A stretch of 52,616 nucleotides of DNA from Roseivivax sediminis (GTDB lineage Bacteria; Pseudomonadota; Alphaproteobacteria; Rhodobacterales; Rhodobacteraceae). The stretch is taken from assembly GCF_900112685.1 (NCBI RefSeq), contig NZ_FOMS01000020.1, positions 1-52,616 of the forward strand, read 5' to 3'. The translations under genes and the position numbers were made by a program. Shown piece after piece: positions 9,088 through 52,616 of the stretch (positions are counted from its first letter, which is position 1; each line of letters begins with the position of its first letter). The notes under the pieces were generated by a model that worked only from the letters and a program-made list of their open reading frames with translations, ran no database searches and was not told the DNA's origin.

Positions 9088-9094
9088 TGAAGGC

Positions 9095-12823: not shown

Positions 12824-12851
12824 GGAAAGCTCCTCGAATCGGTCGAGGAGC

Positions 12852-12882: not shown

Positions 12883-12921
12883 TGCCTTTAACTACTTCCG
12901 ACCGAGACATTGGGCCTTCGG

Positions 12922-16392: not shown

Positions 16393-16857
16393 ATGAAATA
16401 CACCATCCACGCCACGTGCTCAGTCCTGATGCTGCCGTTCATGCTTGCGACGTCGGCAATGGCCGGCTCCGCCGATGTCGTCGTCGAAAACGCCTGGGCG
16501 CGGGCCTCGATCGGCACCTCCCGCCCCGGCGCAGCTTATATGGAAGTCCACAATGCGGGCGACGAGCCGGTCACGTTGACCGGGCTCCGAACAGATCTCG
16601 CCATGATGCCCGAAGTTCACCGGACCGCGACGGACGAGCAGGGTGTGAGCTCAATGTCTCCGGCGGGCCAGATTGTCATTGCACCTGGCGAGACCGTCGC
16701 GTTCGAGCCCGGCGGCCTGCATGCCATGCTGATGCAGCTTCAGCGCCCGATGGAAGAGGGCGAGACCTTTCCGTTGACGCTGACATTCTCCGATGGCGGA
16801 GAGACAACGGTCGAGGTGCCGATCCTCGGGATCGCAGCGCGCGGGCCGGAGGATTGA
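16393..16857 (+). CDS. PCu(A)C-type periplasmic copper chaperone
   Basis: A 154-residue secreted protein: signal peptide to about residue 24, then the PCu(A)C beta fold. The Cu(I) ligands are visible: His76, Met88, and the HxM pair His110/Met112, with 21 residues between Met88 and His110 as in the family. PCu(A)C hands copper to SCO or directly to cytochrome oxidase CuA; the next gene is an SCO, with overlapping stop and start (TGATG). AAGGAG precedes the ATG. Confidence 0.93.
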   Translation: MKYTIHATCSVLMLPFMLATSAMAGSADVVVENAWARASIGTSRPGAAYMEVHNAGDEPVTLTGLRTDLAMMPEVHRTATDEQGVSSMSPAGQIVIAPGETVAFEPGGLHAMLMQLQRPMEEGETFPLTLTFSDGGETTVEVPILGIAARGPED

Positions 16858-21430: not shown

Positions 21431-21921
21431 GAGCAATGAAGCGTCCCACCTTTGCCTCAGCTGTTGCAGGCTGCATCGCTGTTGCAGCATTCGTAACCGA
21501 TCAGGCAACGAAGGCGCTGGTCAGCGCCAATGCCGAAGCCCTTGCCGGCGGTCTCGGCGTCTTACCCGGCTTCAACCTCGTCCTTCATCGCAACTCCGGT
21601 GTCAGCTTCGGCATGCTCAGCGACGTGTCCCCCTTCATACTGGTGGCGCTCGCCTTGGTCATCGCCGCGTGGCTTGCGGTCCTCGCATTCCGGACTGAAC
21701 GGTCAAGTGATGCCGTGGGATACGGGCTCATCCTCGGCGGCGCGATTGGCAACGTGGCAGACAGGGTGCGGTTCGGCGGCGCGACAGACTTTCTCGACTT
21801 CTACATCGGTGAGTCGCACTGGCCCGCCTTCAACCTCGCCGATACCGCGATCGTCTTCGGCGTGGTGGTGCTTCTGTTCTGGCCCCGTCTCCACCTCCGG
21901 GGACAGAACGAGGCCACTTGA
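21427..21921 (+). CDS. lspA: Signal peptidase II (prolipoprotein)
   Basis: A 164-residue, four-helix aspartic protease that cuts lipoprotein signal peptides. The family motifs are visible: HRNSGVSFGML, GAIGNVADRV (catalytic Asp) and FNLADTAI (second catalytic Asp). lspA is a recurrent companion of Zn/Cd resistance genes on mobile elements. Start and stop overlap the neighbours (ATGA with ZIP; the lnt TTG start lies inside its last codons). Confidence 0.95.
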   Translation: MRAMKRPTFASAVAGCIAVAAFVTDQATKALVSANAEALAGGLGVLPGFNLVLHRNSGVSFGMLSDVSPFILVALALVIAAWLAVLAFRTERSSDAVGYGLILGGAIGNVADRVRFGGATDFLDFYIGESHWPAFNLADTAIVFGVVVLLFWPRLHLRGQNEAT

Positions 21922-23507: not shown

Positions 23508-23671
23508 TCATGATCGCAGCATTCGTCGGTGGTGCCGGATTGGGCGCCCGACTGGCAAAGAAACGTGGTGGAAACCGGCTGGACATCGCACACTACGCCA
23601 CGGGTTTCGCCGTGGCCTTCGGGCTGCTGTCGCTCTTCGTAATTATCTTTCTCGAGCGTATCGCGGCATGA
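23504..23671 (+). CDS. Micro-membrane protein (55 aa)
   Basis: A 55-residue protein with a Gly/Ala-rich hydrophobic start, a basic middle (AKKRGG) and a C-terminal membrane helix. AAGGAGG lies six bases before the ATG, which overlaps the lnt stop. No family recognised. Conserved position between lnt and ctaG would support function. Confidence 0.6.
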   Translation: MIMIAAFVGGAGLGARLAKKRGGNRLDIAHYATGFAVAFGLLSLFVIIFLERIAA

Positions 23672-23999
23672 GCGCGCGACGCCTGACCGATGCCGCCATC
23701 ATTTGTCGCGGACGGCTTGCCTTGCAAGGCGTGGCCCGTCGTGGTGCCACACCATCGACTAAAAAGGGCGACTTTCGACAATGCCTGAGACCGAGCCCGA
23801 TAACATGCCAATGCCGCGCGCAGCGGTCCGCCCGTCAGCTATGGCGCGTCGATGGTCACTGTTCCAAGCTCGACCGCCTGCCACCAATCGGCAAGGCTAA
23901 ATCCAGGCCTATGTCCGAGGCGCTCCGTCGCAGTGACTCGAGCCGTGCCGGTGCGCCGATGGTGTCGCGCAGGAACGACAAGGCTCCGGTGATGCGTAG
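23672..23999. other. Gap between the micro-protein and ctaG; no firm gene
   Basis: A plus-strand frame (23668-24003) is open and starts with an ATGA overlap, but its product is Arg/Ser/Pro-rich with no recognisable fold or family. It is more likely decayed DNA than a gene. Nothing recognisable on the other strand. Confidence 0.45.
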
Positions 24000-24983
24000 A
24001 TGACGAACATGCTCTCCTTCGATCCCCTCGGGGCGCAGCTTTCTCCGGCATCGCTTCTCGTGATCGCCGCGCTGGCTGGGCTCTACATGCGAGGTCTCGC
24101 GCGGCCGAGGCGCCTTCGCCCGCAAACTGCTCCCTGGCAAGCCGGGCTCTTCTTCGCCGGTCTCGGGTGCCTGCTGCTGGCCTTCAATGCGCCGCTTTCG
24201 CCACTCGGTCACTCGCTCTTTTCCGTCCATCAGATCAATCACCTTCTTGTGCGCCTTCTCGGGCCTCTGCTGATCGTTGTCGCGCAGCCATGGGGCGTCT
24301 GGACTGCGGGAGTGCCGCGGAATTTGCGACAGCAGATCGACGCTCTGTCGCGCCAACCGCTCGTGCGCGCCTTGCGAAGCCCATGGAGCGCAGCCGCTCT
24401 GCTCGTCGCTACCCTCTACGTCTGGCAAGTGCCGGTTGTATTCGGTCTTGCGCAGCGGGTCCCGTCCGTCGAGTTGACGGCGCATCTCGGCATGGCCGCG
24501 GCGGGGCTCTGGTTCTTCACGTTGCTGCTCGATCCGCGCGATCCCCCCGAGGGGATGCGACGTGGCGCGCGACTGCTCTGCGGGATCGTCGTCATCGTCT
24601 CGAATATCCTGCTGGGGTCGCTGATGACACTGAAAGAAGTCGTGCTCTACGGCGCGACAGACCCGGGCGCCGGCTTCACACCGCTGACAGATGAGACCAT
24701 CGGGGGCTACACAATCTGGGTGCCGTCCTCGATGATCATGATCGCCGCCATCGTTCTGGTGTTCAACGGCTGGAACCGGGCCGAGGAACGCCGCTGGAAC
24801 GCGCGTCATACGTTGATGCAGCAGTCGAACTCGGCCGCTCTCGAATTTCCCGAAACTGCCCAAGAACTTCGGCTCAAGGTCACGCGGCCCAACCGTGACC
24901 TAGGCCGTACGCTGGCCGTGGCGGCGCTTTCGATGTTCGTCGTCGTCATGGTGACGGCTATCACCGTGGTGTCACTTGGGTGA
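24000..24983 (+). CDS. CtaG-like cytochrome c oxidase assembly factor (caa3_CtaG type)
   Basis: A 327-residue membrane protein with about seven to eight helices and the pattern of the caa3_CtaG family: SVHQINHLLVRLLGPLL, LYVWQVP, AHLGMAAAGLWFF and the conserved DP..GF segment. These proteins assist copper delivery to oxidase centres and are also found in copper-resistance operons. It ends the ZIP-lspA-lnt series. The C-terminal part (about 260-327) adds a basic region and one more helix. Confidence 0.87.
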   Translation: MTNMLSFDPLGAQLSPASLLVIAALAGLYMRGLARPRRLRPQTAPWQAGLFFAGLGCLLLAFNAPLSPLGHSLFSVHQINHLLVRLLGPLLIVVAQPWGVWTAGVPRNLRQQIDALSRQPLVRALRSPWSAAALLVATLYVWQVPVVFGLAQRVPSVELTAHLGMAAAGLWFFTLLLDPRDPPEGMRRGARLLCGIVVIVSNILLGSLMTLKEVVLYGATDPGAGFTPLTDETIGGYTIWVPSSMIMIAAIVLVFNGWNRAEERRWNARHTLMQQSNSAALEFPETAQELRLKVTRPNRDLGRTLAVAALSMFVVVMVTAITVVSLG

Positions 24984-25717: not shown

Positions 25718-26950
25718 CTAGTGACACGCGCTTCGCTCGGACAGGCCGATCAAGCTACCGACGATGTTCAGGTGTCCTTCGCGGTACTTCTTCGTCATCC
25801 CGCGCAGATACCCGCCGGGTGAGCTGACTTCGGGTGCTGGGCCGGTTGATTTCGCGTCAGTGATGAGGACGCACCAAGTGGCAGTCTCTTCGCCCATTGT
25901 TGCTACGGCGTCGGTCCATGCGGACGAACTAATACCAAGCTCAGGAAGTCGATGCTGTGCCGCAACAGTGAAGTCGTGCAGGTGCAACGTCGATCGACCC
26001 TGACGGCGTATGTCCAGGTGCATCCTCATATCTTCTGAGGCGAGAGGTAGAAAATGCTGTAGGGGTATCTTGGAGAGGATTTCGGAGTTGTGCGCTCGCT
26101 CGACGCCTTCATCATCTTTTTCTTTGCAGGACGAGACGCCGTTAGGCGGATCGTCACTTGATGTAGAGTGTGCGGACTTGTCCGCACTCGTCTTATCGCT
26201 CGCGTTACAGACTACGTTAATAGAATCTTGGGTTGTATCTTGTATATAGGACCGCTCGTTTTCATGCGGTTCGGCGCTCGATTCTGGGCCTGATTGAAGA
26301 AGATCCAAGGCCGCAGCGCATAGAGCATCGGCGTCAGCTTCATGGTCCGCCAGATCTTCGAGCGGCATCCGGTGCAGTCGGTCGTGAGAGGGCCAGTCTT
26401 CGAAAGACTGCATAATCGCTGTGACCTCGGCGCACTGCCCGTACCTCTCGATCAGCTCGGCCAAGCAGCTCTTGATATGACGTAGGTGGGAGCTGCGCAG
26501 ACCACGAAGCCGACCATGTTCTCGGCGGCGAGCCTCGATCTCGTGACGCATGGCGATGAACTCTTCGACGCGGGCAATTGCTACGGAAAAGAAAACACCG
26601 CAATTAGCGTATCCGGAGCGGGCGCCGTTCGCCATGGTACGAAGCTCGATCAGCCCGGCGCGTTGAAGCTCACGCTCATGCTCGCGGATGCGGGCAGCAG
26701 TTTTGTGAAGCTCCTTGGCGATTTCAGTCTGGCTTTTGTAGCAGCAGGGCTCGTCCTGGGCGCTCTTGAATGCCGAGGGGCGTGTTGTGCTGACCATTGC
26801 CCGGAACGTCGCGAGGGCGGCATTCCCAACCCCTAAGACTGGGGCTACGGCGTCGATGAGGGCGATGAAGCCGTCACGCTCCATGCCTTTGGGGAGGGTA
26901 GGTTTGAGCCCGCGTTGCCGGGTGTCCGGCAGGGCGTCGGTAACGTGCAT
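25718..26950 (-). CDS. repC: RepC-type replication initiator
   Basis: A 410-residue protein with the RepC layout: N-terminal winged-helix region (about residues 35-120, with KSQTEIAKELHK and LQRAGLIELRTMANG), a variable acidic linker (about 225-285), and the C-terminal SPGGYLRGMTKKYREG segment typical of RepC. RepC initiates replication of alphaproteobacterial repABC plasmids, but there is no repA or repB beside this one, so it is a solitary RepC. A long leader with a probable antisense RNA precedes it. Copy control and oriV are expected within and just upstream of the gene. Confidence 0.85.
   Translation of the reverse strand: MHVTDALPDTRQRGLKPTLPKGMERDGFIALIDAVAPVLGVGNAALATFRAMVSTTRPSAFKSAQDEPCCYKSQTEIAKELHKTAARIREHERELQRAGLIELRTMANGARSGYANCGVFFSVAIARVEEFIAMRHEIEARRREHGRLRGLRSSHLRHIKSCLAELIERYGQCAEVTAIMQSFEDWPSHDRLHRMPLEDLADHEADADALCAAALDLLQSGPESSAEPHENERSYIQDTTQDSINVVCNASDKTSADKSAHSTSSDDPPNGVSSCKEKDDEGVERAHNSEILSKIPLQHFLPLASEDMRMHLDIRRQGRSTLHLHDFTVAAQHRLPELGISSSAWTDAVATMGEETATWCVLITDAKSTGPAPEVSSPGGYLRGMTKKYREGHLNIVGSLIGLSERSACH
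26205..26255. other. A+T-rich segment inside repC, candidate oriV
   Basis: A markedly A+T-rich run lies in the part of repC encoding its variable linker, in contrast to the GC-rich surroundings. In repABC plasmids the replication origin lies inside repC in an A+T-rich stretch. Position and composition fit; no iterons were seen. Confidence 0.4.
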
Positions 26951-40920: not shown

Positions 40921-43014
40921 ATGATACAGAACCTAGATACTGTATGGCGCTACCCTTTGGCAGTGATCGCCGGCCTCATGGCCGGCGGTTACATTGGGGC
41001 CATGCTTGCAACGATTTATGGCGCGATCGTTTTCCAAGAGAGTTTGAACAGCATTGGACCGCTTGAGCCGTGGTTCCTTCGGTGGTCGTGGTCGCTTCTT
41101 GCCCGCAATCCCGATGCGCTGAACGTGATCTACCTCATCAACGGAAGCGTCGCCTTCGCGCTGGTCGCGGTTGGTGTGGCAGGTGTCTATCGCGGCAGAC
41201 TAACGAGCTATGACGACGCCCATTTCCAGACCCGGCGCGAGCTGCGGAAGAACCGCATGGTCGCCCCGATCTCGGAGAACGGCTTCGTCTTCGGCAAGAC
41301 CACTCGCCCAGGACGGAAAGGGTTGTATGTTTCGGCAACACCCGACCGCTTTCCGCATGCGATGATGATCGCTCCGACCGGCCGGGGTAAAGGCGTCGGC
41401 TTCGTGATACCGAACCTGCTGCATCACAACGGCAGCGCGATCATTCTCGACGTGAAGGGCGAGAACTTCGAGCAGACCGCCGTTCACCGGCAAAAGGGGC
41501 TCGGCAACGCGATCTGGTACTTCTCGCCGTTCGACTACATCGAGACGTCGGACGGACCAACAACCCGAACGCACCGTTTCAATCCGCTTGCTCGCATTGC
41601 CGCCATGTCATCGCATGAGCAGCAATACACGGCATTGAACACGCTTGCCGACCAGTTTCTCGTTGTGGAAGGCAACGAGGCCAAAGGCTTCTACCAAGCC
41701 GGGAAGCGGCTGTTCGTCGCTTCGGCGCTGTATGCCATTGAGCAAGGTCATCCCAACCTGGGCTTTGCGAAAGAAGTGTTCGGGGGAAGCGGAAATGCCG
41801 AAGAGAACTATCGGCAGTATGCCGAGACGACGGACATTCCTACCGTCGCCTCGGCCTTCACCGAGATGGCTGGGTATAGCCAGAAAATCGTTGACAGCTA
41901 CCGCTCTGTCATCAACGGCGCGGGGTTCGAGCTGTGGGATGATCCATCCGTTGTACGTGCGACGACCGCTAGCGACTTCGATCTCACGTCGTTCCGCCGC
42001 TCGGCTCAATCGCTTTATGTCACGATGCAAGCGGAGCACCTAAAGACCCTGGCACCGCTGGTCCGGCTCTTGTTCGCGGAGGCCATCGCATCGCTTCAAC
42101 GTGCCGAACCTGGATCGGACGAACCCTACACGGTCATGTTCCTGATGGACGAATTTGACCAGCTCGGCCGTCAGCCGTTGGTCGAGAACAGCATCAAAAC
42201 GATCCGCTCCTTCGGCGGACGGTTCTTCATCATCACTCAGTCGATTGCCGGGCTTGATGCGCCGTCGCTCTACGGCGAAGCTGGCCGCCGCGCGCTCATG
42301 GCCGGGGCTGGGGTGAAGGTCTTCATGACGCCTCAAGAGGACCGCACTGCGACCGTTCTCTCGGACATGCTCGGGAAGCACACGGTCGTTTCCAAGACGG
42401 AGAGCCAGAGCCGCATCCGGGAGCTGGACGACAGTGCGAATATCAGCCGCCGTAGCGAAGAACGGCCGTTGATTTCGCCAAGTAAACTGCTTCGCTACCC
42501 CCTCGACCGGGTGCTGATCCTCCCGGAAGGACAGCACCCCATCCAAGCGCATCACATACGCTATTACGAAGATCACCATTTCCGCAAAATCGACGCAGCC
42601 AAAACCGGGCACGATCTGCCCTACCCTCCTTTGCCGGAAGACGAAGGGCCTAAGATCGCGACGCTGGCGCAGGTCACGGAGGCGCAGAAGAAGACGCAGC
42701 AGTACGAACGCTTCGGCGCGCGTTATGCGGACCTGGCCGAACGTGCCAAGAACGCCGGCTCCTCGGGAGACGGAGCTGCCGCCAAAAAATCTCGCAGTCG
42801 CCCTGCCCGCTCCGCTCAAACTGATCTTTCCCGATTCCACGAGGAGGATGAGGCGTCGAACGCCATTGCGGAAAAGTCGACTGAGGCTGGACAGGCATCA
42901 CGCAGCAAGGGCTCGGACCGACGGCCTCCGAGAACCGCGCCTACAAAAGTTGCGGTGGATGCAGCGCCGATGCAGAAGAGCAGTCGTCGCGGGCCTCGCC
43001 GTCGATCTTCGTGA
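40921..43014 (+). CDS. virD4: VirD4/TraG-like coupling protein
   Basis: A 697-residue T4CP that brings the relaxase-DNA complex to the channel. Two N-terminal helices (about 10-33 and 70-90), Walker A APTGRGKGVGFVIPN (about 149-155), DVKGENFE, and Walker B FLMDEFDQLGR are present. A charged, Lys/Arg-rich C-terminal tail follows (about 590-697), a likely docking region for relaxosome proteins. Last gene of the operon. Confidence 0.95.
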   Translation: MIQNLDTVWRYPLAVIAGLMAGGYIGAMLATIYGAIVFQESLNSIGPLEPWFLRWSWSLLARNPDALNVIYLINGSVAFALVAVGVAGVYRGRLTSYDDAHFQTRRELRKNRMVAPISENGFVFGKTTRPGRKGLYVSATPDRFPHAMMIAPTGRGKGVGFVIPNLLHHNGSAIILDVKGENFEQTAVHRQKGLGNAIWYFSPFDYIETSDGPTTRTHRFNPLARIAAMSSHEQQYTALNTLADQFLVVEGNEAKGFYQAGKRLFVASALYAIEQGHPNLGFAKEVFGGSGNAEENYRQYAETTDIPTVASAFTEMAGYSQKIVDSYRSVINGAGFELWDDPSVVRATTASDFDLTSFRRSAQSLYVTMQAEHLKTLAPLVRLLFAEAIASLQRAEPGSDEPYTVMFLMDEFDQLGRQPLVENSIKTIRSFGGRFFIITQSIAGLDAPSLYGEAGRRALMAGAGVKVFMTPQEDRTATVLSDMLGKHTVVSKTESQSRIRELDDSANISRRSEERPLISPSKLLRYPLDRVLILPEGQHPIQAHHIRYYEDHHFRKIDAAKTGHDLPYPPLPEDEGPKIATLAQVTEAQKKTQQYERFGARYADLAERAKNAGSSGDGAAAKKSRSRPARSAQTDLSRFHEEDEASNAIAEKSTEAGQASRSKGSDRRPPRTAPTKVAVDAAPMQKSSRRGPRRRSS

Positions 43015-43020
43015 GGTACA

Positions 43021-43066
43021 CAACGAAAAAGGCCCCGGCGCTCTGACGCCGGGGCCTTTTTCGTTG
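43021..43066. terminator. Bidirectional 20-bp hairpin terminator
   Basis: A perfect 20-bp stem (43021-43040 with 43047-43066, loop CTCTGA) with A-run on the left and T-run on the right, so it works on both strands. It separates virD4 (plus) from the convergent relaxase gene (minus). Confidence 0.93.
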
Positions 43067-43082
43067 GGCGGCTTTCATCGCG

Positions 43083-44957
43083 TTACAGCTCGTGGCCGTC
43101 CTCAAGGTCGGCTGTGCGCTCGACGGCATGGTCATGGGACACTTCGGCCTGATGCTCCCGCGCCATATCTTTGTATGCCTCGACGGTTTCCCGCTCGGCC
43201 GATGCCTCTGGCGATAGATCCGCTTCGTTGCGCATTTCCGAAGCAACGGCAGCACGAACAGCGGGGTCGCTGATTTCATCCTGTAGCGGCGTACTGTCGC
43301 CGTCGATGACCTTCTGCACCTCGTCGTCGGACAGCTCTTCCTCCATGCGGTCTACAAGACTTTCGATGGCCGGAACGTCGGATAGCTGGTGGTGTTTATC
43401 AGCGGTCATGATCTGATCGAGCGCCATTTGCTCTTCGAGATCACGCGGAACCCATGTGTCATCAACGATCCGGTGGCCCTCGTCCATCAGCGCACTCAGA
43501 CGCTCGGAACCGGCCTCATCCAGAGCCTCGGCTCGATCCTGCCACGCTTCGGCCTGAGCGACCGAATGCTCACCTTGGACGGCATACTCGGCCATTTCCT
43601 CCGGCGTCGTGTTCATCTGAACCATGAGGTCCGGGTCTTTGGCAAACTCGGCCGTCAGGGCGTCGCGGACATCGCCCAGGTAACTGTCGATCTGGCTTGC
43701 GCGTGGGTCTTCGGGGTCCAGGTCGGAGCGCACATGCTGCGCGGATGCGAGTGCGAGGCTCGAGAACATATCGTTCGAAGCGTCGGCCGTCGCGGCGTGG
43801 TCCTGAAAGAATGGTTCGGCTTGCGTGGCCTCAAGAAGCTCGGTGCTGGTTCGGGAGAACTCAGCTTCCATCTGTGCCCGCTCGGGGCCGGCGTCCATCG
43901 CTTGAATGTTGTCCCATGCCTGCCGCGCGTCAGAGACCATCTGGTCGTGGGCTTCCGTCATTGCGACGGCTGGGTCGAAGTTATCCGGTGGGGCAAGTGT
44001 ATCCGGTTCAGCCATGAGGCTTCCTCCTTTCTCTAGGGTGTCTGACGATCTGAAAAACGCCTCGGACAGCTTCTCCATGAAGGAGTTGCCGTAACTGGAC
44101 ATTGCCGCGAGTTGACCAAGGCTGGCGTATTGGCGGGCAAAGCCCTGAACGATGCTTTCGCGCCGCTCGCGTTCGCTGTCGGACATTGGGGGAATCGAGG
44201 CGTCATCCCCCCTGCCCTTTTCGGCATGGACCGCGCGGTATTCGGTCTCTCTTGGCGCGTGTTCGACGATGCCTCGCGAAAGCCGGTTGGACGCCACCAT
44301 GTCGATGCCGTGGGATCGAGCGATCTCAGCGTGACGCTCCCGCATCACGTCATAGTTCAGCTCGGACTTCATGCTGATGCTGAGGAAATCACCCCAATCG
44401 CATCCAACCTTATCGACCACGAAGTGTGCATGAATGTGGTCGGGGTCTTTATGAACCGCCGCCACATAGCGCCACTGGTCGCCATAATCGCCACTCGCGA
44501 ACATGGCCTGCCCCCACTCGCGCGCGACCGCCTCGGCCTGCTCGATGTTCGTGCCCTTTGGGAAGCTCAGGATGATGTGGTCGGTATGGCCGCGCTTTGG
44601 GGCACCACGCCACGCGGAGGACCAGTCTTCGGCGGCGCGCTCGATGGTGTTTCCTCGTAGGTCTCGATCTACGCCTGCGAAGTTCGTCCAGGTGGCGTGA
44701 GCGGCATCCTCGCGAGTGATATACTGAAGCTGGCGCGTCAGCTCCTTCTTGTTGTTGCAGCCGCCAGCCTTGATCCGCTTCACGACCGACTGAGGCGAGC
44801 GGCGAGCGTTTCCAGAGAAAGCGCGGATCGCGCGGGACTGAATGCTCTTATCCTGTCGAATACGCGTGCCGTCATCGCCGCTGCGGCTGCGGCGACCAAG
44901 CTCATCGAGCGGGTAGCCGATCAGTGCGTCTTGGACGGAAAGCGGCCGATCGCTCAC
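43083..44957 (-). CDS. VirD2-like relaxase
   Basis: A 624-residue protein with an N-terminal relaxase domain: the likely catalytic Tyr79 in LQYITRED, DHIILSFPKGTN (126-137), RYVAAVHKDPDHIHAHFVVD with the metal site HKDPDHIHAH (169-178). The wording of these motifs is close to VirD2 of T-DNA transfer. The rest (about 300-624) is acidic and helical without a primase or helicase motif. It nicks oriT and pilots the strand. It follows the MobC-like gene with a four-base overlap. Confidence 0.9.
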   Translation of the reverse strand: MSDRPLSVQDALIGYPLDELGRRSRSGDDGTRIRQDKSIQSRAIRAFSGNARRSPQSVVKRIKAGGCNNKKELTRQLQYITREDAAHATWTNFAGVDRDLRGNTIERAAEDWSSAWRGAPKRGHTDHIILSFPKGTNIEQAEAVAREWGQAMFASGDYGDQWRYVAAVHKDPDHIHAHFVVDKVGCDWGDFLSISMKSELNYDVMRERHAEIARSHGIDMVASNRLSRGIVEHAPRETEYRAVHAEKGRGDDASIPPMSDSERERRESIVQGFARQYASLGQLAAMSSYGNSFMEKLSEAFFRSSDTLEKGGSLMAEPDTLAPPDNFDPAVAMTEAHDQMVSDARQAWDNIQAMDAGPERAQMEAEFSRTSTELLEATQAEPFFQDHAATADASNDMFSSLALASAQHVRSDLDPEDPRASQIDSYLGDVRDALTAEFAKDPDLMVQMNTTPEEMAEYAVQGEHSVAQAEAWQDRAEALDEAGSERLSALMDEGHRIVDDTWVPRDLEEQMALDQIMTADKHHQLSDVPAIESLVDRMEEELSDDEVQKVIDGDSTPLQDEISDPAVRAAVASEMRNEADLSPEASAERETVEAYKDMAREHQAEVSHDHAVERTADLEDGHEL

Positions 44958-45490
44958 GTGTCATCCCCCGGAAAAGCCGCATTCGCCAGCGTCCGGCGGC
45001 GAGCCACGTTGATAAAGGTGGTCAGCGCCTCGACCGTATCGCTCACGCGCTCATCAAGCCTGTGCACGGTCTTTGCATCCCGAGCGTTCCATTTGAGCCG
45101 CCCGGAATTGGCGAGTTGAGTGAGCTGGTTCAGATTGCGACCGGCGGCGACAAGCTCTCGGCGGGTCTGAGCAAGAGCATCAATCTCTTCGGAGCGAAGA
45201 TCGAGGGCTCCCACAGCGTGCCTCATCAGCCGCCGAACGCCATCGGACGGGGTTAAACCTTCGGCGTCTACGAGCGCGCGGAACGCTTCGTGTTCCTCCT
45301 TCGTGACCCGAACGTGGATGACTTCGCCATCTGTCGTGGTGTGCCTTGGCACGGCCTGGTGCCGAATGCGCGACACCGCTTGGCGGGATCGGCCAAGCCG
45401 TTTGGCGATCTCGCCATCTTTCCAACCCTCGGAAACGAGGCGTTGGATCTCGGCAATTTCCTTAGCGGTGAGGCGTGGCTTTTTGGGCAT
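44954..45490 (-). CDS. MobC-like relaxosome accessory protein with helix-turn-helix
   Basis: A 178-residue protein. Residues about 1-45 form a resolvase-like helix-turn-helix (ISLVSEGWKDGEIAKRLG type: GWKDGEIAKRLGRSRQAVSR); residues about 55-178 hold a MobC-like region (VRVTKEEHEAFRALVDAEGLT, then ELVAAGRNLNQLTQLAN). MobC proteins bind oriT and help the relaxase open the strands. ATG 45490 is preferred, as the frame upstream lies in the oriT hairpins. Fusion of a helix-turn-helix to MobC suggests it also represses its own promoter. Confidence 0.82.
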   Translation of the reverse strand: MPKKPRLTAKEIAEIQRLVSEGWKDGEIAKRLGRSRQAVSRIRHQAVPRHTTTDGEVIHVRVTKEEHEAFRALVDAEGLTPSDGVRRLMRHAVGALDLRSEEIDALAQTRRELVAAGRNLNQLTQLANSGRLKWNARDAKTVHRLDERVSDTVEALTTFINVARRRTLANAAFPGDDT

Positions 45491-45561
45491 GTCGAAGCGT
45501 TTAAGGAATGTGCTATAAACTTGTATTACACAATACCGTTCCAGCCAACCGACCATAAAGG

Positions 45562-45604
45562 CCGGTTTTCGCCCCTTCGGGGGGATTTCGCTTGCGAAAA
45601 CCGG
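45562..45604. repeat. 11-bp perfect inverted repeat, oriT candidate
   Basis: CCGGTTTTCGC (45562-45572) and GCGAAAACCGG (45594-45604) with a 21-base spacer containing a small CCCC/GGGG stem. It lies 72 bp upstream of the mobC-relaxase operon, where relaxosome proteins usually bind. The arms resemble those of mobilisable-plasmid oriTs; the nick position cannot be read. Confidence 0.65.
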
Positions 45605-45626
45605 ATAGCCTTCATGGTCTCCGTTT

Positions 45627-45666
45627 CGCGCCCGGTGCCCTCTTGAGGGCACTTAGACAGGGCGCG
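45627..45666. repeat. Nested hairpin in oriT region
   Basis: An inner perfect stem GTGCCCTC-TT-GAGGGCAC (45635-45652) lies inside CGCGCCC (45627-45633) and GGGCGCG (45660-45666). Confidence 0.65.
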
Positions 45667-45735
45667 GTGGTCCGCAGGCCAGGAGGTCGCAATCTCGCAC
45701 CGCGAGAGCTGCGACCGGGGCCGTCAGCGGACCAC
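45667..45735. repeat. Three-tier fold-back structure
   Basis: Outer arms GTGGTCCGC (45667-45675) and GCGGACCAC (45727-45735), middle arms GGTCGCA (45685-45691) and TGCGACC (45710-45716), inner TCTCGC-ACC-GCGAGA (45693-45707). All arms are perfect. Such a structure suits a single-strand initiation or relaxosome site. Confidence 0.65.
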
Positions 45736-45869
45736 ACTGCCCCTATATGGCGGATTGGGGCGCGAGAGCGCCGCAGAGACGCCATGAGGGTCATTACGGC
45801 TGCTCCGCGCCACAAGGGCGCGCAGCGTCATTTTAGTCGCCACACGGGCAATTCTGAGAGGTAAAACGG

Positions 45870-46229
45870 CGGAACAACAGAACTGCGGACTAGCGGAAGC
45901 GCGGAACCACGGCCACGCGGACAACCCGACCGACAACTTCACGGAACAGCGGATACGCGGAACAACGGAACAACGGAATATCGGAATGCACGATACGCGG
46001 AGACGCGGATAAGCGGACGAGCGCAGTAACGGACATGCGGAAGCACGGACTAGCGGAACGGCGGAAACACGGATACACGGATACACGGATACACGGATAC
46101 ACGGAACCGCGTAAAAGCTGACTTACTGACTAGCGGACACGCCGAATAACTGATACTCGTATTAGCGGAAGGGCGGACCCGCACGGAACCGGAACGACGG
46201 ACGCCCAGAACAGCCGAACAGCGGAAAGC
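45870..46229. repeat. Phased array of 45 octamers (CGGA + 4 variable bases)
   Basis: From 45870 the sequence divides into 45 consecutive 8-bp units without one insertion or deletion. By hand count, 30 units begin CGGA exactly and 12 more differ by one base; four successive units (46070-46101) are identical CGGATACA. The last four positions prefer A, C and T at 5-7. It ends 32 bp before the ParA-like gene. Unspaced short repeats of this kind are binding arrays for ribbon-helix-helix proteins (centromeres) or transfer enhancers. Confidence 0.95.
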
Positions 46230-46260: not shown

Positions 46261-47040
46261 ATGAAAAGTATCTCAACCATGATGATGAAGGGCGGATCGG
46301 GAAAGACCACACTGATCCGTGTTCTGGCGTCTGCGGCGTTGGCGAAGAACATGAAGGTGCACTTGATCGACATGGACACCGACCCGCAGGCGTCGGACTG
46401 GCCCGAGCGGTTCCGTACCGCCCCCTGGGGCAACTTGGAGAAACCAGAATGGCCGTCTGACAAGTTGACCGTGGCAGGTCCGCCGACGACCATCGAAGAA
46501 CTGTATGAAATCATCGCACAGAAAGAAGGGGAGGGATGCGATCTCTTCCTCATCGACACCAGACCCGGCGCGCATCAGGATACGGAAGACCTGATCCTGG
46601 CAACCGATCTGGTTCTTATCCCGACCCGGCCAGAGCAGGCCGATTTCAAGAAGGCGGAACAGACGGTCGAATGGTTCGCGGCGATTGTGGACACGCTTGA
46701 GAACGCGGCGGATGCCCCACAAATGCGAACGGTGCTGACGGCCGTACAGTCGAAGATGATGGCCGTGCTAACCGGCGATCTCGATATTTCCGCCCTCAAC
46801 CCCCGAGACAGAGAGGTCTTGGACGCCATTGCGTCGCTTCCTCATGCGTCCACCATCATTCCTTACTCGAAGTATTGGATCGAGATTGCCGCTTGGGGCC
46901 CGCTAAGTATCGCGGCCGATGCAGCAGCAGCTCAGTCGAGCGGAAAACTGACCGCTCGAAACATGCGAGATCAAATCGCCGCTGCCGAAGCTCTTCTGGA
47001 CGAGCTTCTTGCGACGGTTCCGGAGCCGGAGGAAGCATAA
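46261..47040 (+). CDS. ParA/MinD-type ATPase, VirC1-like
   Basis: A 259-residue deviant-Walker ATPase: KGGSGKTT (10-17), the switch region LIDMDTDPQASDWPERF (35-51) and LIDTRPG (97-103) followed by ATDLVLIPTRPEQAD. Partition ParAs usually read DLDPQGN and DxP; the Trp after the second Asp, and DTRPG with LVLIPT, are closer to VirC1, the ParA relative that stimulates T-strand formation at overdrive. It lacks the long N-terminal DNA-binding domain of type Ia ParA. It faces away from the relaxase operon with the octamer array directly upstream, and its stop overlaps the next start (TAATG). Confidence 0.88.
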   Translation: MKSISTMMMKGGSGKTTLIRVLASAALAKNMKVHLIDMDTDPQASDWPERFRTAPWGNLEKPEWPSDKLTVAGPPTTIEELYEIIAQKEGEGCDLFLIDTRPGAHQDTEDLILATDLVLIPTRPEQADFKKAEQTVEWFAAIVDTLENAADAPQMRTVLTAVQSKMMAVLTGDLDISALNPRDREVLDAIASLPHASTIIPYSKYWIEIAAWGPLSIAADAAAAQSSGKLTARNMRDQIAAAEALLDELLATVPEPEEA

Positions 47041-47744
47041 TGGCTAAGACCAAGCCCGTTCGGCGTGTCAGCTATGCAGCAAAGAACCAATCGGAACTCT
47101 CCGCGGTGAAGAGTCGGCAAGAGAGTGCACGCGCTTATATATCGTCGGAGGCCGGAAGGGATGAGAAAGCAGCGGCACAGAACGCCGAGCCAACGAAAAC
47201 GTCGGAGGCCGCCGAGAGCCAAGCGCCGGCGGTGAACCGAAAGCCCAAACGACAAGGATCGACAGAGGTAGCGCAGACACCCGAGGCAGAGACAAAACCC
47301 GAGGCCGTCGAGAATCCTGGGCCTTCGCGGCGCGGCGCACAGCGGGCTACGGAGCTTGGGCCCAAGAAGAAGCGCAACGGGTTGGTGCAATGGTTGCCAG
47401 CCGAGCGGGCGCAGCTTCAAGCCGTTGCGGATCGGCTCGAAGTACCGTGGCAGGACGTCGAGAAAGCTCTGTTGAAGAATGCAAGAGACCGCTTCAACGG
47501 GATGACCGTGCAGCAAGCCGAGACGCTGGGGTCAGAAAGCAAGCATCAACTGGATGCAACAAAAGGGGAGGGCGCTTCTGGTATCAGAGCGAACGCCTTC
47601 GCATCGGAGGCCGTTTTCGCTGCCATCCGAACCGGGATGAACGACCGGCTAAATCTGATCTCGGACTACCGTATTGTGTCGGCCGTGTTCCGGCACTTGG
47701 CGCTTGAAGCGTTGAAAGAATGGGAGAAAGAGGCGGCGTCGTAG
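47040..47744 (+). CDS. Partner of the ParA/VirC1-like ATPase, disordered N-terminus
   Basis: A 234-residue protein of unknown family. Residues 1-115 are low-complexity, Lys/Glu/Ala/Pro-rich and probably disordered; residues about 118-234 look folded and helical (LVQWLPAERAQLQAVADRLEVPWQDVEKALL, then TGMNDRLNLISDYRIVSAVFRHLAL). It overlaps the ATPase gene by one base, so it should be its partner: a CBP/ParB substitute or a VirC2 analogue, either of which would bind the octamer array. VirC2 also has a disordered start and a compact DNA-binding end, but no sequence match is claimed. Confidence 0.75.
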   Translation: MAKTKPVRRVSYAAKNQSELSAVKSRQESARAYISSEAGRDEKAAAQNAEPTKTSEAAESQAPAVNRKPKRQGSTEVAQTPEAETKPEAVENPGPSRRGAQRATELGPKKKRNGLVQWLPAERAQLQAVADRLEVPWQDVEKALLKNARDRFNGMTVQQAETLGSESKHQLDATKGEGASGIRANAFASEAVFAAIRTGMNDRLNLISDYRIVSAVFRHLALEALKEWEKEAAS

Positions 47745-48413: not shown

Positions 48414-48453
48414 TATACACCAGCGTCGTCTAATATACACCAGCGTCGTCTAA
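48414..48453. repeat. Perfect 20-bp tandem duplication
   Basis: The same 20 bases (beginning TATACACCAG, ending GTCTAA) occur twice in a row just downstream of rcgR. A recent slippage event or a protein-binding pair. Confidence 0.9.
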
Positions 48454-48497: not shown

Positions 48498-49448
48498 CTA
48501 TCGATGCTCCGCAAAAAGGCCGCAGGCTTGACGTACTACTTCCTGTCGCACTTCCCGCGTTTCTAACAGTATTTCATGCCTACAGTTGGCCAACGGTACT
48601 AGTTTACCGTTCGGCCAACGTGCCATGCGGTCATGAATCGCTTGCACACTAACAAACGCCTCCTCGTCACCATAGAACGCAATGGAAGGAACAGATGGTG
48701 ACGCGATCTTTGACAACTTGCGTGTCTCGCCGAGTGCGGCATATAGCCATCCGAAACTCGGGCCTCCGGTATGCAGCTCAGATGCTAACTCGCCTTGAGC
48801 GGCCCATCTGTTATAATTGTCTAAGGACGTCGTCAGCTTGTTGCCCTCAAAGGGATTTCTCTGAACATAGCTTTGTCTAGAAACGCCGGGGGCATAAGCC
48901 TCTCCCTTACCAAGCTGCTTTGCAAACCAACTAGCGGGCTTGGCAACAAGCCTCTCATACCAAGGAAGATTAATTCCCCACATTGGAGCAGTAAAAACGC
49001 TTGCCGCTACAGGCATGCCGCTACTAAGTGATCGGAGCGCAATAGCTGCACCCATTGAATGACCGATCAAGTACCACGGCTCGGGGAGGCCTAGCTCCTT
49101 TGCCGATGACACAACCGCAGAAACGTCAGTTTGATAATCTAAGAAGCAGCTAACATGTCCAACATATGGATCCTCAGCGACACGTTGGGACAACCCATGC
49201 CCACGCCAATCGACAACTGCAACTGCATAGCCCTCCTCGACAAAATCGGAGACCGCAGCTCCGAACATCTCGATATAGTCTGACCGACCGGGGAATATAA
49301 AAACGGTGCCGAGGGTACTGGAAATGTTACTCCACGTGGCGAACCTTAAGTGCACGCCATCGCCAGATTGCAACCAGGAAGCACGACCGTCATTCGGGGC
49401 CTCCGATAGCTCACTATGTAGCGGAGCTTCTTTAGTCACCATACGCAT
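48498..49448 (-). CDS. rcgR: Alpha/beta hydrolase, RcgR-like
   Basis: A 316-residue cytoplasmic hydrolase of the monoacylglycerol-lipase/lysophospholipase type: GRSDYIEMF near the oxyanion hole, VDWRGHGLS, the nucleophile elbow GHSMGAA, a C-terminal acid in FYGDEEAFVS and His in NCRHEI. From memory this matches the RcgR family (suggested lactone hydrolase) that accompanies RcgA on solitary-RepC plasmids; the substrate is unproven. It overlaps rcgA by 17 bases. The pair has lower GC and different codon use from the transfer genes. Confidence 0.8.
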   Translation of the reverse strand: MRMVTKEAPLHSELSEAPNDGRASWLQSGDGVHLRFATWSNISSTLGTVFIFPGRSDYIEMFGAAVSDFVEEGYAVAVVDWRGHGLSQRVAEDPYVGHVSCFLDYQTDVSAVVSSAKELGLPEPWYLIGHSMGAAIALRSLSSGMPVAASVFTAPMWGINLPWYERLVAKPASWFAKQLGKGEAYAPGVSRQSYVQRNPFEGNKLTTSLDNYNRWAAQGELASELHTGGPSFGWLYAALGETRKLSKIASPSVPSIAFYGDEEAFVSVQAIHDRMARWPNGKLVPLANCRHEILLETREVRQEVVRQACGLFAEHR

Positions 49449-51030
49449 CCTCTGCCGATATTCGAGGTTTCCATGACAAGCTCCACAAACCTGTTACTAC
49501 ACTTATACAGACGACTATGGAGAACCCATAGAACCTGCCAGCGCTGCCGAAGCCAAGCGCTAATACTCCAAGAACGCAAGCCATCTTGATTAGCGTCGAA
49601 CTAAGCTGTCGTCGCATTAAAGCATTATAAGCACCTGTAATATCCGCTGCCACGAATGATTTTAGCAGCCGTTTCGCACATATCATAAAAACACTACAGG
49701 TTAGAACTAAAAGTAGAAAGCTTGTAAAAAATGGCGAAGCATCGTCGTGAATGAAACGCCAAGGCTCTTCATGCCATCCGAGTGCGTATTGTGCGTCATG
49801 GACAAACCACTTCGTGATTGTCGCAGCATCAGTTAGTAGATATGCTGCATTAACCTTGATTGTTAGTGCAATTAACGATCCCAAGGCCGCACACCGAAAT
49901 AGGCTTAATAGTATGTGCTCGCCAATTTCATAATCCGATACAGTCGCCAGTTCGCGATAACTTCTTAGAGCAACGATATCGGAAAAGTCGCTCACAACAA
50001 CATACAAGAGCAGGAGCGAAGAAAAGTATAGCCAATATAGTAAGCCAGAGTACAAGAAGGCTAGAAAGGATACCATGATCGCTGCAGGTGTTGATATCAC
50101 ATCCGGACGCTTTATTGCGACCAGCAACCAGTCTATCATTGACGAGTCAGTCTCGCCATCGAGCAAGGGGAGCAGGTAAACACCCGCCCACTGCAAGAAG
50201 AAAATACCGACGGTGCAGACCACGAGAATTAGCTTGAAGGCTAGAGAGTGTTCTACAAGTCGACGTCCCCAGGACTGTGGCGAACTGTTTATAGCGCTCA
50301 GCAAACTATTTCGCGATGGTCCTGTCCAACTCTTTAGCGTATCACTGACGCTCATCAAGACCATCGGAAGGAGGATCATTTCTCCAATGATCCAAGAAGG
50401 CGACCAAAAGAAACCAACTTGCTTAGGGAAACTATCAGATACTCTATATGTAATATCATGAGTGCCCACGGCATATGCTACGAACCATAGTGTTCCACAG
50501 CACACCCAAACGATGATAGGTAATGTTAGTGAAGGTCCTTTAAAAAGCTCGTCCGTTATTAAAGCGAGGTTTTTTGCTTCGCCACGGGGCGTTTCCACAT
50601 CATTGATCGCATCTGGTGTCTGTCTGTTCTCACGATCAACAACGGTTTCCGGGGTCGGGCTGGCAGCGCGTTTCTCCCGGCGCTTGGACGTCGTTCTCGA
50701 TTGAGCGGCGGAAAGAGCAACCTGCCATTCGCTGGTCGCATGAGTGTCGCCGCAACCGAAAATTCTAGCGAGCCATCGGATGTTTTGGGCGCTTATACCT
50801 TTTTGGTTGTCTTGAAACCAAAGCTGTACTGTTCGCAGCTCAATGCCTGAGCGGTTCTTTCCAATCTGGGATATGGCGCCCGCAAGTTGCTCTGGTGTCC
50901 ACGGTCCTGGTGGCAAACCTTCGGCATCAACGTCGCGCCCCGCTCCCGCGGCGGCCAAACGCCTCAAAAGCTCCTTGATGTCCGGGTCATCGGTAGGCGG
51001 AGCTACATAATATTTACCGTTTACTATCAA
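49432..51030 (-). CDS. rcgA: RcgA-like membrane protein with N-terminal helix-turn-helix
   Basis: A 532-residue protein. Residues about 40-110 look like a DNA-binding helix-turn-helix (WTPEQLAGAIS, LRTVQLWF, NIRWLARIFG). A linker of about 50 residues leads to a membrane part with about nine helices (about 170-520) and no known transporter motif. From memory the family is called RcgA, putative transporter. The layout would also suit a membrane-bound regulator that senses a signal made or destroyed by RcgR. The start is TTG 51030. GC content is clearly lower than in the backbone genes. Confidence 0.78.
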   Translation of the reverse strand: MIVNGKYYVAPPTDDPDIKELLRRLAAAGAGRDVDAEGLPPGPWTPEQLAGAISQIGKNRSGIELRTVQLWFQDNQKGISAQNIRWLARIFGCGDTHATSEWQVALSAAQSRTTSKRREKRAASPTPETVVDRENRQTPDAINDVETPRGEAKNLALITDELFKGPSLTLPIIVWVCCGTLWFVAYAVGTHDITYRVSDSFPKQVGFFWSPSWIIGEMILLPMVLMSVSDTLKSWTGPSRNSLLSAINSSPQSWGRRLVEHSLAFKLILVVCTVGIFFLQWAGVYLLPLLDGETDSSMIDWLLVAIKRPDVISTPAAIMVSFLAFLYSGLLYWLYFSSLLLLYVVVSDFSDIVALRSYRELATVSDYEIGEHILLSLFRCAALGSLIALTIKVNAAYLLTDAATITKWFVHDAQYALGWHEEPWRFIHDDASPFFTSFLLLVLTCSVFMICAKRLLKSFVAADITGAYNALMRRQLSSTLIKMACVLGVLALGFGSAGRFYGFSIVVCISVVTGLWSLSWKPRISAEDAYGD

Positions 51031-51524
51031 GGCTTTGCACGACGGTATTTCGTTCTAATTCGCAACCCTTCGTTGTGTTACGTGATCTAGCAACGTGTCA
51101 CAAGGCATCCATCGCGCAGGAAAGGTAGTGGCGGTGGTCCGCTTAGTACGGCCGGCGGCCGCGAAAGGTTGCATGGCAACCAAGTGCCCGCGCGCGGTCA
51201 GCGTAGGAAGTCCGGGCTTTAGGCTCGGCCGATGGTCCTCAGACCGCACCCCCTACCGATCCTAGTGCCTGAGCGGCCCCGGCGCACCGTCAGGAGCGCC
51301 GGAGCCGCCGGGCGCTGAGGCTTCGACTAAGGGACGTCAATGATGCTGCCACCAAAGATGTACGCCTTTCCGGTCTCGAAAGTGTTCGAGCTGCATCGGA
51401 CGGGCGAAAGGACATTCCTGGGAACTAGGTTCCAATGGAACACCGGACAGTCCGAAGTGGCGTGGGAACGGCCGGATTCATTCAAGGCGGGGACGATCGC
51501 GGAAGAGCCGATCCCAGCCGCCCC

Positions 51525-51544
51525 GGCCGGGCATGAGCCCGGCC
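51525..51544. repeat. 8-bp perfect hairpin
   Basis: GGCCGGGC-ATGA-GCCCGGCC, first of three successive stem-loops downstream of ardC. Confidence 0.7.
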
Positions 51545-51546
51545 CT

Positions 51547-51589
51547 CGCGGGTTGGGGTCGGCGGCGTAGACGCTGACCCCAACCCGCG
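51547..51589. repeat. 14-bp perfect inverted repeat
   Basis: CGCGGGTTGGGGTC (51547-51560) and GACCCCAACCCGCG (51576-51589) with a 15-base loop, followed on the plus strand by an A-run. Second of three successive stem-loops. Confidence 0.8.
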
Positions 51590-51596
51590 AAAAAAT

Positions 51597-51619
51597 GAGC
51601 CCCGCCGAAAGCGGGGCTC
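51597..51619 (-). terminator. Intrinsic terminator of ardC
   Basis: A 9-bp perfect stem GAGCCCCGC / GCGGGGCTC with T-run on the minus strand, 27 bases after the ardC stop. Nearly the same hairpin as at 2855-2874. Confidence 0.85.
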
Positions 51620-51645
51620 CTGTAGGGACAGGGAGAGGGGGCCGC

Positions 51646-52527
51646 TTACGCGGCCTCCTTGGTTTCAACCTCGCCTTTGGACATGATGAAATCCACGGCC
51701 TTCTGAGCCTCGGACGCGGCTCGGAAGATCGCGCGCTTATCGTCCTTCATGGCTTGCAGCCAGCCTTCGACATACGCGGCGGACTGGTCGAACTCGGGTT
51801 CAACACCGATCTGCACGCCCAACATGCAAGCGCCGATCTCTGCGACCAATTCCTCGAAGGCGTAGGCTTTCCGGTCATTGAACCGCTTGAAGCGTTCCAG
51901 CCGCTTGTCGGCGCCGGTCCAGTGGGTCAGCTCATGGGCTAGCGTCCCGTAGTAGCCTTGCGCGGCGTGGAAGGTTGCAATTGGCGGCATGTGGATCACG
52001 TCGCGGCGGAGGTCGTAGAAGGCGCGCGGCTGGTCGCTCGTCTCGATGGCCGCACCGGAGCGGGCAAAGAAAGCCTCAAGCTCGGGGTCGGCCTCGGTGC
52101 CAAGGTCGCGCGGCGGCTCGGGCCGGATATAGAACTCATCGGCCAAGCCTTCGATCTGGTCGGCGTTGAAAACGCGGTAAGCGCGGCAATAGGGGATGCG
52201 CTGCTCGTCGCCGTCCTCGTTCTCCTTCTCAATGGTCCCATATTTGACCACCGTTGCGGATTTCTCGCCCTTGCGGACCTGCCCGCCAAGCTCCTGCGCC
52301 TGCCGGTAGGTCATCCAGCGCGCGGACGTGTAGCCCTTCGCGGAAGCGGTCGCCCACAACATCAGGACATTGATGCCGCGATATTCCTCGGCGTTGAACC
52401 GCAAGGGCATATGCGCGCCACCACCGCCGCCGGTCCACGGCTTGCGCCACGGCGGCGTGCCTGCCTCGATCTGCGCAATGATTTCGTTGGTAACGTGCTG
52501 GTAAACATCGAATTTTGATTTAGCCAT
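51646..52527 (-). CDS. ardC: ArdC-like antirestriction protein
   Basis: A 293-residue protein with an N-terminal ssDNA-binding DUF1738 domain (about residues 5-130, GTPPWRKPW, RGINVLMLW, WMTYRQAQELGGQVRKGEK) and a C-terminal zincin-like metallopeptidase domain with YYGTLAHELTHWTG (HELTH at 198-202) and ELVAEIGACML. ArdC-type proteins are made early in the recipient and protect incoming single-stranded DNA from restriction. GGAGG seven bases upstream fixes the start. The leader crosses the contig joint and is full of hairpins. Confidence 0.93.
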   Translation of the reverse strand: MAKSKFDVYQHVTNEIIAQIEAGTPPWRKPWTGGGGGAHMPLRFNAEEYRGINVLMLWATASAKGYTSARWMTYRQAQELGGQVRKGEKSATVVKYGTIEKENEDGDEQRIPYCRAYRVFNADQIEGLADEFYIRPEPPRDLGTEADPELEAFFARSGAAIETSDQPRAFYDLRRDVIHMPPIATFHAAQGYYGTLAHELTHWTGADKRLERFKRFNDRKAYAFEELVAEIGACMLGVQIGVEPEFDQSAAYVEGWLQAMKDDKRAIFRAASEAQKAVDFIMSKGEVETKEAA

Positions 52528-52616
52528 TTGTGGCCTCCTTCGTGGTGAGGCGGCGGGGTCTAGGTGCCCTCGTTCCGCCGATGGGCTGCGCCTCGGCCAC
52601 CTGATCCGACCGAAAA
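52522..52616. repeat. Contig-end overlap (copy 2)
   Basis: Identical to positions 1-95; see that entry. It contains the first two ardC codons and its ribosome site. Counting it once gives a circle of 52,521 bp. Confidence 0.93.

Follow-up and report, generated by a model that had tools for sequence, protein, structure and literature searches.

The window (the whole stretch of DNA analysed here, 52,616 nucleotides in length) has 95 identical bases at its ends (positions 1-95 and 52522-52616), and because of this overlap the contig probably represents an entire circular plasmid, with a length of 52,521 bp. The feature with which we are concerned is an array of short repeats, which sits between an operon for VirD2- and VirD1-like proteins and a divergent operon for a VirC1-like ParA family ATPase and its partner protein (Table 1). 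Genes for VirB11- and VirB4-type proteins lie farther to the left on the plus strand, which is also the strand of the VirD4-type gene. The latter gene is convergent to the relaxase gene in the window (40921-44957); in three related loci (L001, L002 and L004) the two genes are on one strand. Elsewhere on the plasmid, genes for a multicopper oxidase, a heavy-metal P-type ATPase, a cation efflux protein, SCO1, Lnt and CtaG-like proteins are carried as cargo at 7219-13045, 16416-17483 and 21918-24980, and a 20-bp unit is perfectly duplicated in tandem (two copies) at 48414-48453. Beyond the partner gene (48501-52527) there are genes for a lysophospholipase-like hydrolase, an RcgA-family protein and an ArdC-like antirestriction protein, and when 45 locus records were searched, 10 of them had a match to the last of these.

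Table 1. Features of the window that bear on the interpretation of the octamer array
Feature	Coordinates	Strand	Remarks
RepC replication protein	25721..26950	-	context for the partition question
VirD4-type coupling protein	40921..43014	+	Pfam T4SS-DNA_transf E 1.4e-77
VirD2-like relaxase (Pfam MobA/VirD2-like family)	43083..44957	-	Pfam Relaxase E 2.3e-15; NCBIfam VirD2 E 1.9e-26, below cut-off
NikA/VirD1-like relaxosome accessory protein	44957..45490	-	Pfam NikA-like E 4e-8; NCBIfam VirD1 E 1.6e-4, below cut-off
Candidate oriT block	45491..45760		conserved, between mob operon and array
Octamer array	45870..46229	+	45 units in register, CGGA core and four variable bases, single orientation
ParA-family ATPase, VirC1-like	46261..47040	+	Pfam VirC1 62.8 bits; PDB ParF E 1.5e-5
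Partner, proposed array-binding protein	47040..47744	+	234 aa; predicted tandem RHH-like C-terminal domain

The block next to the array contains nested inverted repeats (45551-45562/45608-45619 and 45562-45572/45594-45604) and shows 84% identity over 259 columns to Salipiger plasmid DNA, and based on its position and conservation it would be the oriT of this plasmid. An oriT had been placed beside the array in the first-pass annotation; the position and the conserved inverted-repeat block agree with this, whereas a nic site, which was sought by eye using the known MOBP pattern, was not found.

When the array is cut into octamers from position 45870, CGGA is found at the start of 30 of the 45 octamers, a further 12 units are one base away from it, and 39 of the 45 octamers are distinct. 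The numbers given earlier for this array (45 octamers over 360 bp, 30 with CGGA and 12 one-off) are reproduced exactly, and the sharp autocorrelation peaks at 8 and its multiples by which the register was to be checked are also observed, the identity being 0.54-0.57 at lags 8, 16 and so on up to 48 versus 0.20-0.29 at the remaining lags up to 49. When the array was shuffled 2000 times with its dinucleotides preserved, the lag-8 identity had a mean of 0.287 and a maximum of 0.398, with no more than 6 in-phase occurrences of CGGA, and when the whole window was scanned with 360-bp windows, lag 8 never exceeded 0.34 outside the array among the 30 best windows listed. Conservation is unevenly distributed within the unit: the commonest base is present in 44, 34, 40 and 42 of the 45 units at positions 1-4 and in 20, 17, 18 and 22 units at positions 5-8 (heterogeneity chi-square 92, p = 5e-17), and the variable bases are not notably AT-rich. 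The variable halves of adjacent units have a likeness of 0.34, as compared with 0.318 +/- 0.035 when the units are in random order, and because neighbours are no more alike than this, most of the array does not appear to derive from recent duplication. The exception consists of four identical CGGATACA units at 46070-46101. A long-range block repeat was also considered, based on the variable-half likeness of 0.44 and 0.42 for units that are 20 and 30 apart, and it was rejected, as the maximum in shuffled orders has a mean of 0.42 and a 95% point of 0.47. The core matches at fewer than three of its four positions in only three units (45934, 45990 and 46182); in the last of these CGGA lies two bases off register, and the register is back at 46190. 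In all, 123 of the 360 positions differ from the consensus without any lasting shift of the register. Since positions 1-4 are conserved, positions 5-8 are not, and neighbouring units are not alike, the register is held while half of the unit drifts.

The presence of an array beside the ParA operon recurs in Rhodobacterales plasmids, and in most of the loci it stays together with the relaxase and VirD1-like genes. When the step was scored by in-phase composition for periods 6-16, a phased array was found in 37 of the 38 ParA-like loci scored (the window included, many rows being near-copies), with a step of 8 bp in 25 arrays, 7 bp in 10, 9 bp in one and 13 bp in one. The first 32 loci, L003 among them, included 22 with an 8-bp array, 8 with a 7-bp array and one with a 13-bp array (L019), as well as Jannaschia M317 (L017), in which the ParA/partner pair is present and no array rises above the shuffles; of the added loci, L115 and L116 have a step of 7 bp, L118, L119, L120 and L122 of 8 bp, and L121 of 9 bp. 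The 9-bp array of Haematobacter (L121) and the 13-bp array of Paracoccus (L019) occupy the same slot. Loss of the register in related plasmids, which according to the first-pass annotation would have spoken against its reading, is therefore not what the comparison revealed, and strict register is kept. However, the 8-bp step described there holds for the window clade and for some VirC1-type relatives, and it is replaced by 7, 9 or 13 bp elsewhere.

Similarity or taxonomy, and not random sampling, guided the choice of the relatives. The plasmid relatives were picked by similarity to ParA, to the relaxase or to the VirC1 of L118, and a part of the listed matches was used. The genome loci represent 80 of 200 listed matches, of which 15 (L022-L033, L036, L041 and L093) were set apart as likely family before the period scoring on the basis of score or a Rhodobacterales name, the rest serving as controls; in further genomes, 9 of 394 matched at E <= 1e-40, and 6 candidates per genome were scored. 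L003, which lacks a ParA gene, is outside the 38-locus count. Left out were L005 (intergenic sequence identical to that of L004), L102 and L007 (the window itself), L028 (ParA frame broken; no array in 394 bp upstream), L110 and L111 (fragments of the contig of L028), and L103, L104 and L106, which were taken as repeats of L011, L012 and L018. Some incomplete loci, viz. L027 and L108 (ParA cut or partly matched) and L023 (partner shortened), were counted, and so were near-copies (L011-L013 with L023-L025 and L105; L014, L016, L018, L026 and L107; L001 and L002; L030 and L032; L120 and L122). Due to these near-copies, the independent cases are fewer than the rows.

If the step were distributed over these loci irrespective of ancestry, then it would change on the ParA tree about as often as in shuffled data. 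The observed distribution requires 6 changes, whereas 16.0 were required on average after shuffling and none of the 200 shuffles came down to 6, and on another ParA tree it requires 4 changes versus a shuffled mean of 14.6. Three sets are separate in the ParA tree, viz. the 8-bp loci of the window type, to which L017 is joined, the loci with a 7-bp step, and the VirC1 group (8 and 9 bp), and the 7-bp rows make up one side of a branch which has modest support (74/67) in this tree and 92/82 in the other. Gaps between related arrays were also compared: L001 and L002 differ by an in-array gap of 24, and L014 differs from L016, L018 and L107 by a gap of 8. Many of the remaining aligned gaps are split or are not multiples of 8, and a third group is too divergent; as the gaps are often not multiples of 8, no claim is built on this test.

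The word that is repeated differs between clades while the step is maintained. The word is CGGA in the window, of GGA type in Salipiger and Alloyangia, GGNGC in Phaeobacter pP73_d, of CGCA type in Aliiroseovarius (L022) and NCCGGTAA in Phaeobacter pP13_g, and the words in the 7-bp clade include ATGACGG, GACANGC, CGAACAC and others. One example of such turnover is provided by L004 and L022. The oriT blocks of these loci are 98% identical (157 columns), parA DNA is 74% and ParA 79% identical, and the partner is 54% identical; the step is 8 bp in both, and the arrays are unalignable, the 58.5% obtained with a gap-permissive aligner comparing with an average of 63-64% for shuffled arrays of two other pairs. 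From this pair of loci, the reader (partner) and the word appear to change together. A partner with lower conservation than its ParA was observed in 8 of 8 comparisons between loci. Two words can be observed in the same strain: in Phaeobacter inhibens P78, pP78_f (L116) has 49 heptads GACANGC and pP78_e (L122) has 40 octamers NCCGGCAA.

In 64 regions upstream of less related ParA genes, which served as controls, the scores for 7 or 8 bp did not exceed 18; the best-scoring period was 8 in eight of these regions (scores up to 18), and there was one case with a 13-bp score of 35. A 13-bp periodicity is present before an unrelated Erythrobacter ParA (L085, upstream of position 5001). Several of the arrays are weak, and those of L105 (18.7) and L012 (21.8) are barely above the best control 8-bp score of 18. 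Scores in 24 shuffles were at most 5, and when nine loci were shuffled 40 times each, no score for any period from 6 to 16 was above 14.8. In the genome to which the window belongs, no 7- or 8-bp array was found before three other ParA genes, whose start codons were guessed by a script. A ParA of this genome outside the window that matches Pfam VirC1 (5.3e-19; L123, contig C21) has no array upstream, and its contig has no Pfam Relaxase match. In five loci with a related relaxase, tblastn with 12 protein queries (ParA, VirC1 and partner) found nothing within the stretch searched. A 7-, 8- or 13-bp array is absent from four of them (L112, L113, L114 and L117); these do show 9-bp scores of up to 34, which lie away from the tested gap, 9 being a multiple of the codon length. 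The fifth (L003, 5330-5510), on Alloyangia plas4, has a relaxase, an oriT block and an 8-bp array, the word of which is of the same kind as that in plas2 (L002) of the same strain, and plas4 may be a satellite using the proteins of another plasmid. Near-perfect octamer runs were also encountered in other settings. One of these, in a Burkholderia stagnalis plasmid (match H9; L006, 1996-2270), is a near-perfect 8-bp minisatellite of CGGAGACA-like units in a 4.1-kb stretch with no annotated gene, and it was rejected as unrelated. Another, in a Maritalea plasmid (L015, 3050-3280), is a near-perfect run of AACAGCAA octamers; the surrounding region has a gene for a MobF relaxase and, together with a partitioning determinant, a second ParA gene.

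The ATPase encoded next to the array passes the Pfam VirC1 model (62.8 bits versus a cut-off of 24), but fails the cut-off of the NCBIfam VirC1 equivalog (58.3 bits versus 313), and the ParA/partner gene pair adjoins VirD1/VirD2-type genes, as is expected for a VirC1/VirC2 module. In the matching slot of Roseobacter litoralis pROLI81, the two proteins match Pfam VirC1 (6.7e-95) and VirC2 (2.9e-7; 30.5 bits, cut-off 25), and this plasmid has an 8-bp array with a score of 41 versus no more than 4.7 in 40 shuffles. Arrays of 8 bp are also present in Roseobacter denitrificans pTB1, where VirC1 is annotated, and in Phaeobacter pP13_g, and a 9-bp array is present in Haematobacter pOT1-9, the partner of which is annotated as VirC2 family. 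The partners of L021 and L118 match the Pfam VirC2 model. In the rhizobial VirC1 loci L020 and L021 an upstream array was not found, 160 bp being available in L021.

For the window partner itself, no family match above cut-off was obtained with Pfam or NCBIfam. A direct match to VirC2 was considered and rejected, as there is no Pfam or NCBIfam VirC2 match, and a profile of the window-type partners gave no match to VirC2 directly (0.5%, below 1%); PDB sequence searches with the partner and the partner profiles gave nothing useful. Window-type and 7-bp-type partners match each other as profiles (94.9%, E 4.6e-8, 114 columns), and the 7-bp-type partners in turn match VirC2 weakly (55%, E 1.2e-4, 31 columns, with a common DPL motif). 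Because the 7-bp-type partners are the only route, the link between the window partner and VirC2 is indirect. An AlphaFold2 model of the window partner, made with an alignment of 11 sequences, predicts a helix at residues 12-46, a low-confidence linker and then a C-terminal domain, in which two beta-alpha-alpha (RHH-like) units are present in one chain with an extra helix between them (pLDDT 88-96 over residues 111-234, except 72 at 171-180). The order of the two units is predicted to be identical in the partner from the 7-bp clade. In Foldseek searches against the PDB, for which all E-values with the window partner are weak (best 0.24), F-relaxosome chains, which we infer to be TraY, occupy ranks 1-3 and VirC2 (2rh3) rank 4 (probability 0.41, E 0.61). 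For the partner of the 7-bp clade, VirC2 2rh3 is the top PDB match (probability 0.96, E 0.018, rmsd 7.2; TM 0.44 by target).

Taken together, these observations make it probable that the array is a VirC-type, overdrive-like relaxosome and partition site, on which the partner would form a coat with a constant step. The earlier interpretation of the array is supported in part, by the register kept in relatives and by the predicted RHH nature of the 47040-47744 protein, for which both units are predicted in one chain, unlike ParG with one per chain. Two corrections concern the core and the step: CGGA is not conserved across the relatives, each clade having its own word, and the step is not 8 bp throughout. 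In the mechanism that we propose, the partner, with both RHH units in one chain, would bind each octamer via its 4-bp core in one orientation; the single orientation of the array fits such a one-chain reader, because a reader of this kind need not be symmetrical. Neighbouring partner molecules would pack side by side and bind cooperatively, with the step fixed by the geometry of the protein, and they would form a continuous coat that turns by about 274 degrees around the DNA per 8-bp step. At 10.5 bp per turn, 274 degrees is the rotation over 8 bp, so that one left-handed turn would contain about four sites; over 7 bp the rotation is 240 degrees, with three sites per turn. The coat would present many flexible N-terminal tails, which may recruit or stimulate the VirC1-like ParA ATPase, and the latter would position the relaxosome at VirD4 and so influence transfer in an overdrive-like role. 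Where this ParA is the sole one on the plasmid, as here, it may segregate the plasmid too and thereby contribute to stability; as no ParA other than the oriT-linked one was detected on the plasmid, this ParA may serve segregation as well as transfer. Transcription may also be affected, since 31 bp separate the array from the start codon of ParA and binding of the partner would probably repress the ParA operon.

Several of these components resemble those in known systems. The Agrobacterium Ti plasmid has, like the window, a ParA-like ATPase followed by an RHH-like partner (VirC1/VirC2) beside VirD1/VirD2-like genes, and its overdrive is enhancer DNA near the nick, a role that is proposed here for the array. 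VirC1 is described as binding overdrive, working with VirC2 and delivering the relaxosome both to the cell pole and to the coupling protein (PMC4949242, PMC4285021). However, the window ParA is below the equivalog cut-off and the partner lacks a VirC2 model match, and overdrive, which is compared here by its description, lies beside a T-DNA border and is given as 83 bp in native or 24 bp in minimal form (preprint PMC13277942), whereas the window array extends over 360 bp between two operons. Omega of the omega/delta system of pSM19035, which forms a left-handed protein helix on its iterons (PMC5016525), is similar in that a predicted RHH protein is found with contiguous short repeats, and the heptad step is shared with the sister clade. 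It differs from the present case in that the window step is 8 bp, and no search linked the window partner to omega. In R388 also, direct repeats by oriT are next to a ParA-like gene: StbA binds 9-bp repeats beside oriT (two sets of five, 2-bp spaced), in the presence of StbA conjugation depends on the ParA-like StbB, which is not needed for stability, and stbABC couples stability and transfer (PMC3098194). Unlike the window partner, StbA is not described as a tandem RHH protein in the parts of PMC3098194 drawn upon here. In another system, the Par proteins of NAH7 are reported to enhance transfer (PMC12421886). F TraY is a one-chain RHH relaxosome protein, as is predicted for both RHH units of the window partner, and it binds DNA as a train of three (PMC12117103); unlike the window array there are three sites, and a ParA partner is not described in the portions of PMC12117103 consulted.

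If the array is bound by another protein, viz. the ATPase itself or the NikA/VirD1-like protein, then the role of the partner would be different from that proposed. The binding of overdrive attributed to VirC1 (PMC4285021, PMC4949242) is in accordance with this, and we regard it as unlikely but deserving of consideration. It is opposed by the turnover of the word together with the partner, which is less conserved than ParA in every pair compared, and by the four loci noted above, which have a relaxase and an HTH/VirD1 gene and no ParA/partner match and lack a 7-, 8- or 13-bp array.

It is also quite improbable, in our assessment, that the array is only the centromere of a type Ib (ParF-ParG-parH-like) partition system, with its closeness to oriT being incidental. 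As in this system, there is a ParA, a predicted RHH partner with a flexible N-terminus, and a site of tetramers and spacers 5' of the operon, and parH of TP228, with its degenerate tetramer boxes and AT-rich spacers that are coated by the RHH protein ParG (PMC7308502, PMC5016525), is very like CGGANNNN. Further, on the window plasmid, Phaeobacter pP73_d and Jannaschia unnamed2, each of which has RepC, AAA_31 gives no match other than the oriT-linked ParA, and the window plasmid has no second ParA and no ParB_N match. A single ParB_N match is present in pP73_d (675 aa frame) and in Jannaschia unnamed2 (755 aa, below cut-off), and because of these matches a further partition system on these two plasmids is possible. 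However, of the 13 relative plasmids, 7 (W05-W08, W10, W12 and W13) have an additional RepA-sized ParA frame of 393-406 aa, and W01, W02 and W09 also have other ParA matches; due to these RepA-like or other ParAs, the module is not the sole partition candidate in many hosts, although it may be in some. In most loci the array is accompanied by genes for a relaxase and a VirD1-like protein, and in a relative the same slot is occupied by Pfam-grade VirC1/VirC2; both are likewise against a centromere function alone. The window array also differs from parH in being relaxase-linked, in having 45 units and in its spacers, which are not notably AT-rich, and each chain of the 234-aa partner is predicted to contain two RHH units in place of the one in ParG (PMC7308502).

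If the array served solely as an operator, the partner repressing its own promoter by coating it, then the array should lie close to the ParA start codon. This is the case in the window (31 bp) and in L001, L002, L004, L014, L022, L026 and L093 (-12 to -34), and partner proteins of type Ib are also described as repressors (PMC5016525). However, in L011-L013, L023-L025, L027, L105 and L108 a distance of 276-446 bp lies between the end of the scored array and the ParA gene downstream of it, Alloyangia plas4 has kept an orphan array in the absence of the operon, and 45 sites over 360 bp are many for this purpose, so that this explanation is very improbable. It is scarcely credible that the array is a neutral, decaying minisatellite made by slippage, as the short run of identical units and the B. 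stagnalis minisatellite of similar letters are outweighed by a decay that is uneven across the octamer, by the many departures from the consensus without lasting register shift, and by the recurrence at one locus of arrays with a clade-constant step and different words.

While the parts of the VirC-type, overdrive-like site proposed here resemble known things, the combination of a VirC-type module, a long phased array, a clade-fixed step and a changing word looks new. In the open-licence literature, such arrays were not described in the titles and abstracts among the matches listed, which does not imply their absence from print, and no paper was found there for VirC1, oriT and tandem repeats together. 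Two papers on roseobacter conjugation, in the parts searched for oriT, repeats and VirC, contained nothing on such arrays (PMC4886583, PMC5513947).

A broader proposal, which we put forward tentatively as a possibility that is more doubtful than the reading above, is that one coat acts as both centromere and transfer enhancer, that the clade-constant step results from the geometry of the reader, and that the word co-evolves with the reader as an identity tag. The specificity of ParR is known to set incompatibility in Clostridium conjugative plasmids (PMC9426499). If the word is an identity tag, then co-resident conjugative plasmids would use different words or steps, as is the case for pP78_e (8 bp) and pP78_f (7 bp), and a satellite plasmid could borrow the system by means of a matching word, as may be so for Alloyangia plas4. 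The natural arrays provide matched pairs of reader and word at a fixed step for studying VirC2-type reading and overdrive-like sites, and the steps of 7, 8, 9 and 13 bp form a natural series on how the geometry of a protein sets the step. It would thus become directly testable what VirC2-type proteins read, on an overdrive-like site in ordinary conjugative plasmids, and in these plasmids the array may unite segregation and conjugation at a single site.
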